From a virus: a stretch of 27,082 bases of DNA. The notes under the pieces are model-generated. The model ran no database searches. It saw only the letters and a program-made list of their open reading frames with translations, and was not told where the DNA came from. Of this stretch, positions 3,875-10,919 are shown one piece after another. The position numbers and the translations under genes were made by a program. Position 1 is the first letter of the stretch; every line of letters begins with the position of its first letter. Location: the IMG/VR virus record IMGVR_UViG_3300007511_000120, positions 1-27,082 of that record; one strand, given 5' to 3'.

Positions 3875-3902
3875 TTGACAAATTAAAAACGTAAGGTATA
3901 AT
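3875..3902 (+). promoter_or_regulatory. sigma70-type promoter P5, upstream of gene 62
   Basis: TTGACA 3875-3880 and TATAAT 3897-3902 are spaced 16 nt apart. Transcription would start at about 3908-3911, on or next to the ATG at 3909, so the mRNA would be leaderless or nearly so. Confidence 0.75.
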
Positions 3903-3908
3903 ATAATT

Positions 3909-4316
3909 ATGGGACCATTTGAAATTATAAAAGCTATAAATGAAGGTAAGGATATCATGAAAGATAATCCTTTAGTAGAGGGAGATTATATTCCTTTTTT
4001 GACTAATAGGGGATTATCGTTTTTTCAAGATACTATTATACAAGTCAATGAAATGAATAGGTTACATTTTCTTGATAATAAACTCCAATTCGACTATTTA
4101 CTAAATAACATTAGACCAAGAAAACGGTGGTCTAAATGGTTGAAACCAGAGAAGATTGACAATCTAGAACTAGTCAAAACATATTTTGGTTTCGGTAATG
4201 AAAAAGCAAAGGATGCTCTTGAAATTCTCACAGTTGAGGATATTGAAGAGATTAAAAGCAAACTTAGCAAAGGTGGAGTGGAGAAAAATGACTATAAATA
4301 TAGAGGAAATGATTGA
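3909..4316 (+). CDS. 62: DNA polymerase clamp-loader small accessory subunit, gp62-like
   Basis: A 135-residue protein matching T4 gp62 in two places that I recall. The N-terminal PFEIIKAIN corresponds to T4 FFEIIGAIN. Residues near 74-90 (LLNNIRPRKRWSKWLKP) match T4 LMAAVPRGKRYGKWAKL, including the RKRW-x-KW core. In T4, gp62 joins four gp44 ATPase subunits to load the gp45 sliding clamp onto primer-template DNA. The protein is shorter than T4 gp62 (187 residues). Homology supports ATG 3909 even though it coincides with the predicted transcription start. ATG 3957, with AAGGA upstream, is the alternative. Gene 44, normally next door, is not in the window. Confidence 0.85.
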   Translation: MGPFEIIKAINEGKDIMKDNPLVEGDYIPFLTNRGLSFFQDTIIQVNEMNRLHFLDNKLQFDYLLNNIRPRKRWSKWLKPEKIDNLELVKTYFGFGNEKAKDALEILTVEDIEEIKSKLSKGGVEKNDYKYRGND

Positions 4317-4701
4317 ATGTTCACTAAATGAACCTGATGATTTTCTAAAAATACGAGAGACATTAACAAGAATTGGAGTTGCTTCAAGAAAAGATAAGAC
4401 TTTGTTTCAATCATGTCATATATTACATAAACAAGGGCGATATTTTATTGTCCATTTTAAAGAATTATTTGCACTTGATGGTAAACCAACAAATTTTTCA
4501 GAGAATGATCAAGCGAGAAGAAATACTATTGCAAACTTATTAGCAGAATGGGAACTTATCAAATTGATAAAACCTAGTCGTTCTGCTGAATTAACAGTTC
4601 CATTAAATCAATTAAAGATATTATCTTATAAAGAAAAAGATGAATGGAGCTTAACTGCTAAATATAATATTGGAAGCAAAAAGAATAATGAAATAGAGTG
4701 A
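4288..4701 (+). CDS. regA: RegA translational repressor
   Basis: A 137-residue protein aligning closely with T4 RegA. MIECSLNEPDDFLKIRETL matches T4 MIEITLKKPEDFLKVKETL without gaps. The following CHIL..Q/KG.Y.IVHFKE segment and a WxLIxxI segment also match. RegA binds AU-rich translation initiation regions of early mRNAs and represses them. ATG 4288, with GGTGGAG upstream, is taken as the start. The T4-equivalent methionine is ATG 4309, whose GAGG is only 2 nt away. The gene overlaps the end of gene 62, as expected from the T4 order 62-regA-43. Confidence 0.93.
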   Translation: MTINIEEMIECSLNEPDDFLKIRETLTRIGVASRKDKTLFQSCHILHKQGRYFIVHFKELFALDGKPTNFSENDQARRNTIANLLAEWELIKLIKPSRSAELTVPLNQLKILSYKEKDEWSLTAKYNIGSKKNNEIE

Positions 4702-4708
4702 GTAGAAT

Positions 4709-5251
4709 ATGACAGCAAAATCTAAAACTATATCGTTGAAATTCTATAAATTAACCGAAACAGCTAGATTACCAGTATTTTCTACTGAAAATTCTGCTTG
4801 TTTTGATTTTTATGCGGATTTACCAGCAGATGTAAAAGTACAGTATTATAACCCCGTAACGAATAAACAGTTACCAAGGGGCTTATCATTTGATATAAAT
4901 AGTAAAAGAAACTATATACAATTAAACAATATGGAGCGAATACTGATTCCTTTAGGGCTTATCGCAGATATTCCAAAAGGTTATTCGGTTCGACTTCATT
5001 CACGGTCTGGCTTGGCGTTTAAACAGGGAGTTTATCTAGCGAATTGTGAAGGGATCATAGATTCAGATTATATTGATCCTATCTTTGCAATGATTACAAA
5101 TATTAGTAATGTACCAGCACGGATTTATGATGGAGACAGAATATGTCAAGGCGAACTCGTCAAATGTGAAAAATATACATTAGATGAGATTGATGAACCA
5201 CCTACTCAAAAGACAAATAGAGATGGTGGATTTGGTTCAACAGGTACATAA
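4709..5251 (+). CDS. dut: deoxyuridine 5'-triphosphate nucleotidohydrolase (dUTPase)
   Basis: A 180-residue trimeric-type dUTPase, which hydrolyses dUTP to dUMP and pyrophosphate, keeping uracil out of DNA and feeding dTMP synthesis. All five motifs are visible: I around ACFDFYAD (30-37), II HSRSGLAFKQG (97-107), III GIIDSDY with the catalytic Asp (115-121), IV GDRICQGE (142-149) and V RDGGFGSTG (171-179). It is longer than the usual 145-150 residues because of an insertion at about residues 39-75, between motif I and the core. It lies 7 nt after regA and is probably co-transcribed from promoter P5. Confidence 0.96.
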   Translation: MTAKSKTISLKFYKLTETARLPVFSTENSACFDFYADLPADVKVQYYNPVTNKQLPRGLSFDINSKRNYIQLNNMERILIPLGLIADIPKGYSVRLHSRSGLAFKQGVYLANCEGIIDSDYIDPIFAMITNISNVPARIYDGDRICQGELVKCEKYTLDEIDEPPTQKTNRDGGFGSTGT

Positions 5252-5284: not shown

Positions 5285-5506
5285 ATGTTAGATAAGGCAA
5301 TAAGCTGGATTCGTAGTCTTACAGAAGCGGGTCTTGCATTAATCGCACTTGGAGTAGTTTTACAAATTATTTTCGGGGCTGCAGTTCCATTTTTAGGAAT
5401 TGATGTTATTGGTTCAGTAGTTGGATTAGTTAAACAACTTGGGGCCGAAGGACTTGTCGGTTTAGTTGCAGTATGGGTACTTTGGGGAATTTATTCCAAA
5501 AAGTAA
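5285..5506 (+). CDS. small two-span membrane protein, possible holin
   Basis: A 73-residue protein behind AATAGGAG. Two hydrophobic spans are visible, about residues 14-38 (Leu/Ile/Val/Gly/Ala-rich) and 54-70, joined by a short loop with Lys and Gln. The N-terminus has an amphipathic start and the C-terminus ends in two lysines. Size and topology fit class II holins, and an M15 peptidase lies 2.3 kb downstream. The gene sits behind early replication genes, however, so holin is only a suggestion. Confidence 0.8.
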   Translation: MLDKAISWIRSLTEAGLALIALGVVLQIIFGAAVPFLGIDVIGSVVGLVKQLGAEGLVGLVAVWVLWGIYSKK

Positions 5507-5511
5507 AGTAC

Positions 5512-5539
5512 TTGACAAATTCAAATTATATGATATAAT
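5512..5539 (+). promoter_or_regulatory. sigma70-type promoter P6 for the ncRNA
   Basis: TTGACA 5512-5517 and TATAAT 5534-5539 are spaced 16 nt apart. The predicted start is near 5546, followed by no translatable gene but by a GC-richer structured region ending at a T-run. Confidence 0.85.
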
Positions 5540-5545
5540 ATAATT

Positions 5546-5804
5546 ATAAGTGATATATATAATATGAAATAAAAAAAGGGTGAACAAAGAGTTGACGGAC
5601 TCTGGATATACTGATAATAACCTTGTCGAGAGCCGAGGTAGTCAGACAGTTCACAGATGGTGCTGAGGCTACCCTTCTGGTAACAGAAGGGGGTCACATT
5701 CCGCATGCCAGCGGAGGTTCTGGTTCGGAGGGTACAGCTAACGGAAGTTCGTTCCCCAATGTTGTAGGTACGCCGAGTCCTACTATCCACCTCACCCTTT
5801 TTTT
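5546..5804 (+). ncRNA. structured non-coding RNA, unknown class
   Basis: A stand-alone unit of about 255 nt between a strong promoter and a terminator-like 3' end. The ends close in a perfect 13-bp helix: seven A plus GGGTGA (5571-5583) with TCACCC plus seven T (5792-5804), so the 3' T-run doubles as helix strand and transcription stop. Inside are AGAGT/ACTCT (5588-5603), ACCTTG/CGAGGT (5620-5639), an 8-bp hairpin CCCTTCTG/CAGAAGGG capped by a GNRA loop GTAA (5672-5691), TCCGC/GCGGA (5700-5715), GGAA/TTCC (5743-5755) and GTAGG/CCTAC (5764-5783). The region is much more GC-rich than its flanks. It lacks tmRNA, RNase P, SRP and 6S signatures that I know. ORFs across it lack ribosome binding sites and protein-like composition. 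Confidence 0.8.
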
Positions 5805-5812
5805 AATTTTAG

Positions 5813-5820
5813 TATAAATA
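5813..5820 (+). promoter_or_regulatory. T4-type late promoter for hsp20
   Basis: TATAAATA is an exact match to the T4 late promoter consensus, recognised by the phage sigma factor gp55 with gp33 and the sliding clamp. It lies in the gap after the ncRNA, 93 nt before the hsp20 start. Transcription would start near 5827, exactly at the first base of the leader hairpin. Confidence 0.65.
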
Positions 5821-5826
5821 ATTTTT

Positions 5827-5920
5827 GAGGTTGTCCATAGTGGAAACCTCATTAACATAACGATTCGTCTAGCGAAAGAGGGTCGTTTATTTTATTAACC
5901 TCGCTTTATAAGGAGGATTT
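5827..5920 (+). promoter_or_regulatory. structured hsp20 leader, possible RNA switch
   Basis: Two hairpins precede the ribosome binding site. GAGGTT-g-TCCA (5827-5837) pairs with TGGAAACCTC (5841-5850), giving 10 bp with one bulge. AACGATTCG (5859-5867) pairs with CGAA (5873-5876) and TCGTT (5883-5887) around a bulge AGAGGG. A second AACCTC (5897-5902) duplicates the 3' arm of hairpin 1, and its CCTC can also pair with GAGG inside the AAGGAGG ribosome binding site (5910-5916). Alternative pairings could hide or expose that site. Confidence 0.45.
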
Positions 5921-6403
5921 ATGGTACAATTTCGCGCATCGCATGTTCCCATGAATTTTGGGGATATAGAAAAGGCCCTTGGATTTTCTGTAGGGTTTGA
6001 TCAAATGTTTGACAGATTACTTGGTGATTTTCAAGTAAATGTTGCAAACAATTCCACTAACTTTCCACCATACAATATCCGAAAAGATGGAGATACTAAG
6101 TATTATATCGAAATGGCAGTTGCCGGTCTTTCGGAAGATGATTTGGAAGTTGAATTGAAGGATGGAGTTCTTTCTATTAAGTCAAAAACCCCTTCAACGG
6201 GTGTGGAAGAAGTGACTTATGTTCATCGTGGCATTGCACGAAGACAATTTGAACGATCTTTTACTTTGAGTGATGATGTTCTAGTGAAAGGTTGTGAATT
6301 AATCAATGGAATGTTAACCATAGAATTAGAAAAGGTTATTCCAGAAGAGAAGAAGGCTCGTAATATTCCAATTGGAAGACCTGAAGTGAAAAAAATCAAC
6401 TAA
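5921..6403 (+). CDS. hsp20: Hsp20-family small heat shock protein
   Basis: A 160-residue small heat shock protein, an ATP-independent holdase that keeps unfolding proteins soluble. The alpha-crystallin domain spans about residues 48-140, with the typical VAGLSEDDLEVELKDGVLSI segment and the conserved GMLTIELEK strand (130-138). A C-terminal IPI motif (149-151) fits the IxI anchor used in oligomer assembly. Viral Hsp20 is common in T4-like marine phages and is thought to assist virion assembly. The ribosome binding site AAGGAGG is strong but may be controlled by the leader. A strong terminator follows. Confidence 0.95.
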   Translation: MVQFRASHVPMNFGDIEKALGFSVGFDQMFDRLLGDFQVNVANNSTNFPPYNIRKDGDTKYYIEMAVAGLSEDDLEVELKDGVLSIKSKTPSTGVEEVTYVHRGIARRQFERSFTLSDDVLVKGCELINGMLTIELEKVIPEEKKARNIPIGRPEVKKIN

Positions 6404-8438: not shown

Positions 8439-10919
8439 ATGCCAGATCAAAAGTTCTACACAAATGTTGTTTGTCTAGGTGATTTCATATTTGAAAGGGG
8501 TGTAAAGAATGGTCGCCCCTTTAATGCTAAACATGAATTCCTTCCTACATTATACGTTCCTACCAAAAATAAAACAGAATGGCGCACTTTAAATGGTAAT
8601 CCTGTTGCTCCTGTAACATGGGGATCTATTAAAGAAACCCGTGAATCTTTTAAAAAATATGAAAATGTTCAAAATATGGAAATTTATGGCCATACAAATT
8701 TTTCCTATTCTTTCTTATCAGAAGAATATCCAGAAGAACATATAGGCTATAACCTTGAACATATCAGTAAAATGTATATTGATATTGAGGTAGGATCTGA
8801 GAGTGGATTTCCAGATCCACAACTTGCTTCTGAAGAAATTACTGCAATTACTATTAAAATGAATGATAATATTGAAGTTTGGGGTTGTGGAGATTTTATT
8901 CATGGAGATGAAGTTCAATATAATCATTGTAAAAATGAAAAAGAATTATTAGAACAATTTGTGTTATTTTGGCAACAAAATTGTCCTCATGTAATTACTG
9001 GTTGGAATATTAAAATTTTTGATATTCCATATTTATGTAATCGTATTCGTCAAATATTGAGTGATGCCTGGGTCAAGAAACTTTCTCCTTGGGGATTTGT
9101 AAAATCTCAAACTATTTTTGGTATGGGCGGTAAGGAACTACAAGCATACGAGATTTATGGTGTATCTGAAATTGACTATTTAGAAGCATATAAAAAGTTC
9201 ACTTATATAAATCAAGAATCATATAGATTGGATCATGTTGCTTATGTAGAATTGGGAGAAAAGAAATTAGATTATTCTGAGGTGGCCACTCTTCATGAAT
9301 TATATAGAACTGATTATCAGAAATTCATAGAATACAATATTCAAGATGTGTTATTGGTAGATCGGCTTGAACAGAAGATGAAACTATTGGATATGATCAT
9401 GTCACTTGCATACTTATCCAAGTGTAATTTTTCTGATGTATTTGCTCAGACAAGAATGTGGGATTGTATTATTTTTAATCATCTTTTGAGAGAGAAAGTT
9501 GTAATTCCACAAAAGAAAAAAGAACAAAAGGGAGATGCTTATGAAGGTGCTTATGTAAAAGTTCCTCAAACTGGAAGGCATGAATGGATTGTGAGTTTTG
9601 ATTTGAATAGCTTGTATCCTCATTTAATTATGCAATATAATATTTCACCAGATACTATTCTTGGTAAGTGGCAAGATGAGATAGGGGTTGCGGGATTATT
9701 GAATAAAGAATATGATACTTCTCTTTGGAAAGAAAAAGATATAACGGTTACTCCAAATGGATCAGTATATCGTAGAGATTTTCAAGGATTTCTTCCAAAA
9801 CTGATGGAGAAGATGTATACTGATAGAGTCAAGTACAAGAAGATGATGTTGGCTGAACAGAAAAAGGGGAAGAACGCGGATTCTAATAAATTGGCTCAAT
9901 ATTTTAATATGCAATTCAATCTCAAGATTGCTCTTAATTCTGCATATGGTGCAATGGGAAATCAATGGTTTCGGTTTTATGATGAACGAAACGCAGAAGC
10001 AGTTTCTGTTGCTGGACAGTTATCTATTCAATGGGCCGAGAAAACAGTAAATGAATATCTTAATAAAACACTAGATACAGAAAATGTTGATTATATTGTT
10101 GCTTCCGATACTGACTCTTTATATGTTCGTCTTGATGATCTTGTTTCTAGAGTTGGTCTTACCGATAAAGAAAAGATCGTTAACTTCTTGGACAAATCCT
10201 GTGGAAGAATAGAAAATGTAATTGCAAAATGTTATGAAGAATTGGCAAAGTATGTAAATGCATATCAACAAAAAATGGTGATGAAGAGAGAAGTAATTGC
10301 TGATGTTGGTATTTGGACTGCAAAGAAACATTATATTTTAAATGTTCATGATTCTGAGGGTGTTCGATTTGAAGAACCTAAACTCAAGATTATGGGTATT
10401 GAAGCTATCAAGAGTTCTACACCAGAACCATGTAGAAAATCTCTAAAAGAGGTTTTTAATATTATTGTATCGGGTACTGAAGATGAGGTTATTGACTATA
10501 TTGAAACTTTCAAAGAGAAATTTTATAGTTTAAGAATGGAAGATGTAGCATTTCCAAGATCAGTCAAGGGGTTGAATAAGTATAAAGATTCATCCACGAT
10601 TTATCGGAAGTCAACTCCGATTCATGTAAAAGGATCTTTGATTTATAATCATATGTTATCAAACAAAAAACTATCTAAGAAATATCCAAGAATTCAAGAA
10701 GGCGAAAAGATCAAGTATGCATATTTGAAAGATCCAAATCCAGCAGGAGATAGAGTCATTTCGATATTGAATACTCTTCCTGATGAATTTGAATTGGAGA
10801 AATATATAGATTATGATACTCAATTTTCAAAGTCTTTTATTGAGCCTTTAAAAGGCGTATTAGATGTAATTGGGTGGGAAACAGAAAGAAAGTCTAGTTT
10901 GGAATCATTTTTTTCATAG
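8439..10919 (+). CDS. 43: family B DNA polymerase, gp43-like
   Basis: An 826-residue replicative polymerase with 3'-5' proofreading. Exonuclease motifs are YIDIE (Asp115, Glu117), GWNIKIFD (Asp195) and YNIQD (299-303). Polymerase motif A is DLNSLYP (388-394), B is KIALNSAYG (Lys496, Asn500, Tyr503-Gly504) and C is SDTDS (Asp557, Asp559). The length is close to that of marine T4-like gp43 and somewhat below T4's 898 residues. No stop, frameshift or intein is seen. The start context (GGTATAAATAAATG) has no Shine-Dalgarno sequence, and the N-terminal KFYTNV pattern agrees with related polymerases. Translation may be controlled by RegA or gp43 itself, as in T4. Confidence 0.98.
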   Translation: MPDQKFYTNVVCLGDFIFERGVKNGRPFNAKHEFLPTLYVPTKNKTEWRTLNGNPVAPVTWGSIKETRESFKKYENVQNMEIYGHTNFSYSFLSEEYPEEHIGYNLEHISKMYIDIEVGSESGFPDPQLASEEITAITIKMNDNIEVWGCGDFIHGDEVQYNHCKNEKELLEQFVLFWQQNCPHVITGWNIKIFDIPYLCNRIRQILSDAWVKKLSPWGFVKSQTIFGMGGKELQAYEIYGVSEIDYLEAYKKFTYINQESYRLDHVAYVELGEKKLDYSEVATLHELYRTDYQKFIEYNIQDVLLVDRLEQKMKLLDMIMSLAYLSKCNFSDVFAQTRMWDCIIFNHLLREKVVIPQKKKEQKGDAYEGAYVKVPQTGRHEWIVSFDLNSLYPHLIMQYNISPDTILGKWQDEIGVAGLLNKEYDTSLWKEKDITVTPNGSVYRRDFQGFLPKLMEKMYTDRVKYKKMMLAEQKKGKNADSNKLAQYFNMQFNLKIALNSAYGAMGNQWFRFYDERNAEAVSVAGQLSIQWAEKTVNEYLNKTLDTENVDYIVASDTDSLYVRLDDLVSRVGLTDKEKIVNFLDKSCGRIENVIAKCYEELAKYVNAYQQKMVMKREVIADVGIWTAKKHYILNVHDSEGVRFEEPKLKIMGIEAIKSSTPEPCRKSLKEVFNIIVSGTEDEVIDYIETFKEKFYSLRMEDVAFPRSVKGLNKYKDSSTIYRKSTPIHVKGSLIYNHMLSNKKLSKKYPRIQEGEKIKYAYLKDPNPAGDRVISILNTLPDEFELEKYIDYDTQFSKSFIEPLKGVLDVIGWETERKSSLESFFS

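Follow-up and report, generated by a model that had tools for sequence, protein, structure and literature searches.

The window analysed here, a stretch of 27,082 nucleotides of viral DNA (IMG/VR record IMGVR_UViG_3300007511_000120), carries genes for a clamp loader, a RegA-type translation repressor and a dUTPase, followed by a structured stretch, the small heat shock gene hsp20 and a DNA polymerase gene (Table 1). At the start of the structured stretch, TTGACA (5512-5517) and TATAAT (5534-5539) stand 16 nt apart and match the sigma-70 consensus perfectly; three such promoters occur in the window (at 3875, 5512 and 8350), against a mean of 0.125 and a maximum of 2 in 200 dinucleotide shuffles. 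Further on, A7GGGTGA (5571-5583) pairs with TCACCCT7 (5792-5804) in a perfect helix of 13 bp, or 14 bp counting T5570-A5805. Perfect 13-mer arms 150-260 nt apart are found as two overlapping pairs in the window, which are this closing helix counted twice, and are absent from 36 of 40 shuffles. By the pairing, the RNA is predicted to be the loop of its own terminator, the 3' strand of the closing helix bearing the T run. GC content climbs to 0.49-0.56 across 5600-5799, and the segment 5550-5806 folds at -87.1 kcal/mol compared with an average of -69.7 for shuffles (z -3.74; 0/200 shuffles as low), the opposite strand folding less well (z -2.22; 4/200 shuffles as low). The original prediction had described such a promoter, an end-to-end helix doubling as a T-run terminator, and a GC-richer, structured and non-coding stretch with an 8-bp stem under a GNRA tetraloop, and the analysis bears it out on each of these points. 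Just upstream, 5285-5506 encodes a 73-aa hydrophobic protein that is conserved at this position in related loci and has no Pfam or PHROG match.

Table 1. Features of the window, with their positions and the basis of each assignment
Feature	Position	Strand	Basis
Clamp loader	3909-4316		
RegA-type translation repressor	4186-4701		phrog_242
dUTPase	4709-5251		
Sigma-70-type promoter TTGACA-16-TATAAT	5512-5539	+	12/12 consensus; 11-12/12 in 17/18 clade copies
Closing (terminator) helix, 5' arm A7GGGTGA	5571-5583	+	Sequence; helix kept in clade alignment
First manA hairpin, GAGTTGACGGACTC type	5588-5603	+	Compensated changes, clade alignment columns 17-32
manA RNA, full-length Rfam model (1-192)	5589-5793	+	49.3 bits, E 8.5e-12, cut-off 55.2
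P1 5' strand GGATA, partner TATCC 5784-5788	5604-5608	+	Clade alignment columns 33-37 with 219-223
8-bp hairpin CCCTTCTG-GTAA-CAGAAGGG, GNRA tetraloop	5672-5691	+	Sequence, clade alignment
Closing helix 3' arm and T7 terminator tract	5792-5804	+	T runs of 4 or more in 18/18 clade copies
hsp20 mRNA leader, three hairpins, the last covering the Shine-Dalgarno sequence	5826-5920	+	30 leaders; fold z -2.52
hsp20 (small heat shock protein), downstream neighbour	5921-6403	+	PF00011 E 8e-17, phrog_432
DNA polymerase	8439-10919		

It had also been held that no known RNA class fits this stretch. That claim does not hold. A permissive Rfam search returned manA RNA (RF01745) over the full length of the model, at 49.3 bits and thus below the family's own cut-off; neither the window nor any of 19 hsp20 loci yielded manA at the gathering cut-off. 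When 11 loci of the same clade were scanned with Rfam, nine gave manA matches of 44.4-59.2 bits, two of them reaching or passing the cut-off of 55.2 (L082 at 59.2 and L086 at 55.2 bits) and seven falling at 44.4-54.5, while L085 and L107 had no Rfam match at E <= 0.001. The permissive search found no other family with a meaningful score on the RNA's strand, which leaves the suggestion of a host-mimicking RNA unsupported.

Nucleotide searches of phage records with the window RNA gave only promoter-like or short chance matches, and relatives were therefore taken from IMG/VR, using 80 hsp20-centred loci together with two sequence patterns (31 and 29 stretches). Six coding chance matches to the first pattern (L091, L103-L105, L109 and L110) and three incomplete copies (L090, L098 and L107) were left out. 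The resulting clade set comprises 18 distinct complete copies, the window included. Compensatory changes in homologues had been named beforehand as a test of the structure, and they do occur: 27 of the 72 consensus pairs of the clade alignment show compensated changes and very few are broken, and unpaired bases are conserved as well. In P1, four of five pairs have two-sided changes. The stretch is overlapped by mechanical open reading frames at 5623-5817 (+) and 5521-5790 (-), which could be taken for a small protein gene; we regard this as having next to no probability, given the single-base indels and compensated changes within the clade and the full-length match to an RNA family. Judged from the alignment, the stretch is non-coding.

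A covariance model built from the 18 clade copies only, which by construction spans 5573-5805 in the window, found 62 of the 100 manA-candidate loci listed as L111-L210 and 9 of the 35 candidates L211-L245, compared with none of 50 hsp20 loci lacking manA; apart from these it matched the window and, in L071, a partial manA. The 38 of L111-L210 that it missed include S-CREM1 (a 9.6-bit fragment), whose manA scores 96.6 bits with the Rfam model. A joint alignment of 53 sequences, fitted to the structure of the model, has 94.3% of its pair cells paired (99.6% in P1) and two-sided changes in 68 of the 72 pairs; none of 500 shuffles comes near this, and slid controls are only 41-49% paired. The Rfam match, the recovery by the clade model and the covariation together identify the window RNA, at the level of sequence, as a divergent branch of manA with an extra enclosing helix.

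In the 2010 description by Weinberg et al. (PMC2864571), manA is reported from T4-like cyanophages and marine metagenomes, is catalogued as certainly cis-regulatory and probably a riboswitch, and has ibpA chaperone genes among its neighbours. The window RNA resembles the family as described there in its whole-length match, the order of its helices, its marine phage source and its ibpA/hsp20 neighbourhood. It differs from the Rfam family in that the sequence of its clade diverges and straddles the cut-off, in the extra enclosing helix that bears the terminator, and in that the evidence for this clade points to an RNA gene rather than to a 5' UTR element.

A near-perfect promoter lies just upstream of 17 of the 18 copies, and the enclosing helix is present in all 18. 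(Helix lengths of 6 bp printed for L084, L085 and L102 are a script artefact, an earlier TCACC having been taken.) The -10 box stops 8-10 nt short of the GGGTGA of the closing helix in 16 of the 18, which places the predicted start at the 5' strand of that helix in most copies; in the window, the distance is 38 nt. In L106, the copy without a promoter, the enclosing helix measures about 18 bp when checked by eye (23 bp by automatic extension) and could be a processing stem.

The position upstream of hsp20 is not always filled by manA. We tabulated 79 hsp20 loci, 73 of which have at least 330 nt of upstream sequence; among these 73, manA is present in 8, a promoter without manA in 49 and no such promoter in 16. 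A hairpin and T run, detected with a simple pattern, occupy 27 of the 49 promoter-only slots, and in L059 the closing stem AAAGGGTGA...TCGCCCTTT remains with a four-base loop. Clade copies also occur away from hsp20 (L106 and L251), and one contig has manA near one end (L251, 250-482) and a short-hairpin slot at its hsp20 (L065). One might see in these slots an early terminator or insulator between operons whose loop merely holds a decaying manA, as in most hsp20 slots the promoter is there and manA is not, a short hairpin often standing in its place. We consider this very improbable, because manA is under clear selection, with two-sided changes in 27/72 pairs across the 18 copies, few broken pairs and conserved unpaired bases. 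The promoter and short hairpin of the manA-less slots may have a use of their own. Two further observations concern the region upstream of hsp20. Tandem tRNA-like repeats, GCGAGTAG...CTGCTCGCTCCA, lie upstream of hsp20 in L060-L062 and L066; ARAGORN calls no tRNA in them and they were left uncounted. Several loci (L063, L082, L083 and others) have a conserved open reading frame of 43-54 aa between manA and hsp20, ending where the hsp20 leader starts, which is absent from the window.

The leader of hsp20 is a second structured element. Across 30 related leaders, 14 of 24 pairs show two-sided (compensated) changes, and in all 30 a CCUYG-CUU strand of the last hairpin pairs with AAGGAGG, leaving one G unpaired. 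The leader is conserved both with and without manA, and a similar hairpin precedes hsp20 in P-SSM2. In ROSE thermometers, a UYGCU-type strand is paired with the Shine-Dalgarno sequence. According to PMC4166951, they always accompany small heat shock genes; like them, the leader found here places several hairpins ahead of a small heat shock gene and sequesters the ribosome-binding site in the final one, and unlike them it belongs to a phage. By this analogy, we put it forward as a candidate ROSE-like RNA thermometer, separate from manA. The Rfam search of 5500-5930 gave no ROSE or other thermometer family at E <= 10, and our literature search, covering mainly open-access sources, returned no title on RNA thermometers upstream of hsp20 in phages. 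The T4-type late promoter TATAAATA (5813-5820) was also weighed as a separate start for hsp20 and not taken as evidence: the motif occurs 5 times in the window compared with 4 expected, and only 19 of 53 slots contain NATAAATA.

We also analysed copies of the cyanophage type, for which a pattern scan gave at least 120 viral stretches and 13 from genomes. Once truncated rows had been dropped, 120 distinct rows with enough 3' sequence remained, S-CREM1 and ACG-2014f included; 111 of these were kept and 9 were discarded as chance matches. Redundancy among near-identical loci was reduced only where the core was identical, so that counts on the listed matches are neither exhaustive nor independent, including the 93 of 105 listed copies with a promoter of at least 10/12 just upstream (29 of 1980 random positions). 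In several loci (L121, L125, L126, L151 and others), the -35 TTGACA of this promoter lies in the loop of a terminator-like hairpin, GAGGG-TTGACA-CCCTC with a T run behind it, and the upstream terminator thus overlaps the manA promoter. The 3' flanks of the 111 copies among the matches listed were sorted into 11 that are tRNA-adjacent, 55 with a T tract (a loose rule with a random rate of 12.9%), 38 that lack both a tRNA and a T tract and have an open reading frame starting a short way on, and 7 others. By a stricter measure, T5 within 14 nt after P1, 36 of 111 listed copies qualify, compared with 30 of 1991 positions taken at random and 13 of 451 positions that follow an ORF. These T tracts may be attenuators rather than gene ends. 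In L126, L128, L129, L135, L139, L170, L172 and L209, manA has just 3' of it a recurrent element, AGACCTAAGATGCAACTC...GAGTGGGGCAGATGGTCT with a T run behind, which looks like a conserved hairpin or a second terminator.

The genomic company of manA bears on whether it acts in cis. Its neighbours include pstS, the major capsid gene, gp32, regA with purL and hsp20, ferredoxin, ribonucleotide reductase with transaldolase, and tRNAs; with simple ORF calling, the genes flanking manA in 100 loci among the matches listed fall into 39 families on the downstream side and 47 on the upstream side. Of the downstream neighbours listed, 99 of 104 run in the same direction as manA, compared with 80 of 97 for the upstream neighbour and 630 of 723 for all long open reading frames, and a gp32-like family lies directly downstream in 19 of the 100 listed loci. 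Such downstream genes, together with the 38 of 111 listed copies that look like 5' UTR elements, are the reason for keeping a cis role as a rival: manA would be the aptamer of a riboswitch or attenuator, the closing helix its terminator, and a ligand would decide on read-through into hsp20. This would agree with the cataloguing of manA as cis-regulatory and a probable riboswitch with ibpA neighbours in PMC2864571. In the window, hsp20 lies downstream, beginning 117 nt past the T tract, with a terminator in between; P-SSM2 has the order regA, manA, purL, hsp20, and the promoter and short hairpin are kept in hsp20 slots that lack manA. Against such a role, the leader of hsp20 is unchanged where manA is missing, and the neighbours are unrelated between phages whereas copy number is constant at one: each of 14 complete cyanophage genomes (P-SSM2, P-HM2, S-CREM1 and others) has exactly one manA. 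The sole antiterminator-like pairing, ACCTCA 5789-5794 with TGAGGT 5826-5831, borrows one side of a leader hairpin whose conservation is just as strong in loci lacking manA, and was set aside for that reason. Moreover, a manA that sits inside a tRNA array has no mRNA that it could control. We therefore regard the riboswitch as unlikely, though considerably less so than the insulator, and some loci may have a manA that acts in cis.

These tRNA-adjacent copies are the strongest argument for an RNA gene. In S-CREM1, manA occupies the gap between tRNA-Leu and tRNA-Asn, and in ACG-2014f (KJ019037, L112) it lies between tRNA-Arg(TCT) at 2406-2479 and tRNA-Asn(GTT) at 2693-2764, both of which are unannotated in the record. 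In L228, L122, L173 and L162, the last base of the tRNA directly precedes manA with no gap, and L143 combines a long tRNA array, manA and a tmRNA (116.6 bits). The L143 tmRNA, at 1705-1955, is of the cyanobacterial type, and the permuted tmRNA family also matches it at 80.1 bits. All 13 tRNA-neighbour loci that were scanned together, out of 15 (S-CREM1 and L111-type rows being scanned separately), have manA above the cut-off. The nearest parallel known to us is offered by rnaC and rnaD of T4 (species 1 and 2 RNA), which we take to be stable RNAs of the phage tRNA cluster; they are annotated beside tRNA-Arg, much as manA occurs within cyanophage tRNA arrays. At 139 and 119 nt, respectively, they are a parallel to manA and not members of its family: with filters off, the clade model gave at best 6.3 bits over 20 nt, which is not meaningful, and the Rfam search reported no manA in them at E <= 10, so that no homology was found. 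Outside phages, the Bifidobacterium plasmid pMP7017 is reported (PMC10832533) to have a region of 20 tRNA genes in which manA and a tmRNA lie about 1.4 kb apart. That copy resembles phage manA in its tRNA and tmRNA company, and differs from the RNA-gene reading in being called cis-regulatory by its authors (PMC10832533). A search of plasmids with the S-CREM1 manA gave no match.

We consider it probable, at roughly 0.7, that manA RNA works here as a free-standing RNA gene. Family membership, the fold, the promoter, the terminator, the varied neighbourhoods and the tRNA company of relatives can be read from the sequences; from these we infer that the RNA accumulates separately and acts in trans. 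Transcription would begin at the sigma-70-type promoter, and would stop at an intrinsic terminator made by pairing between the two ends of the RNA. The product would be a discrete RNA with the manA fold inside the closing helix, of about 260 nt here and about 235 nt in most relatives (about 230-260 nt overall). The RNA might then bind a protein, ligand or ribosomal partner in early phage takeover, in a manner tied to translation. The connection with translation is a tentative proposal, made because relatives sit inside phage tRNA and tmRNA arrays. In the literature on manA RNA that we found, mainly open-access, none treated manA as an RNA gene and none stated a function for it.

The clade represented by the window shows where the Rfam manA cut-off loses members, and it offers a terminator-closed form of manA with predictable ends. 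The cyanophages with a single copy, P-SSM2, P-HM2 and S-CREM1 among them, make the idea of an RNA gene directly testable. More speculatively, marine T4-like phages may carry manA as an RNA gene, one copy each, whose stable product acts in trans and helps to reshape host translation together with phage tRNAs and tmRNA; its ends would come from its own promoter and terminator, from the processing of adjacent tRNAs or, as in L106, from a long enclosing helix. If it is indeed an RNA gene and not a leader, its role would have to be sought in the binding partners of the RNA and not in the neighbouring genes.
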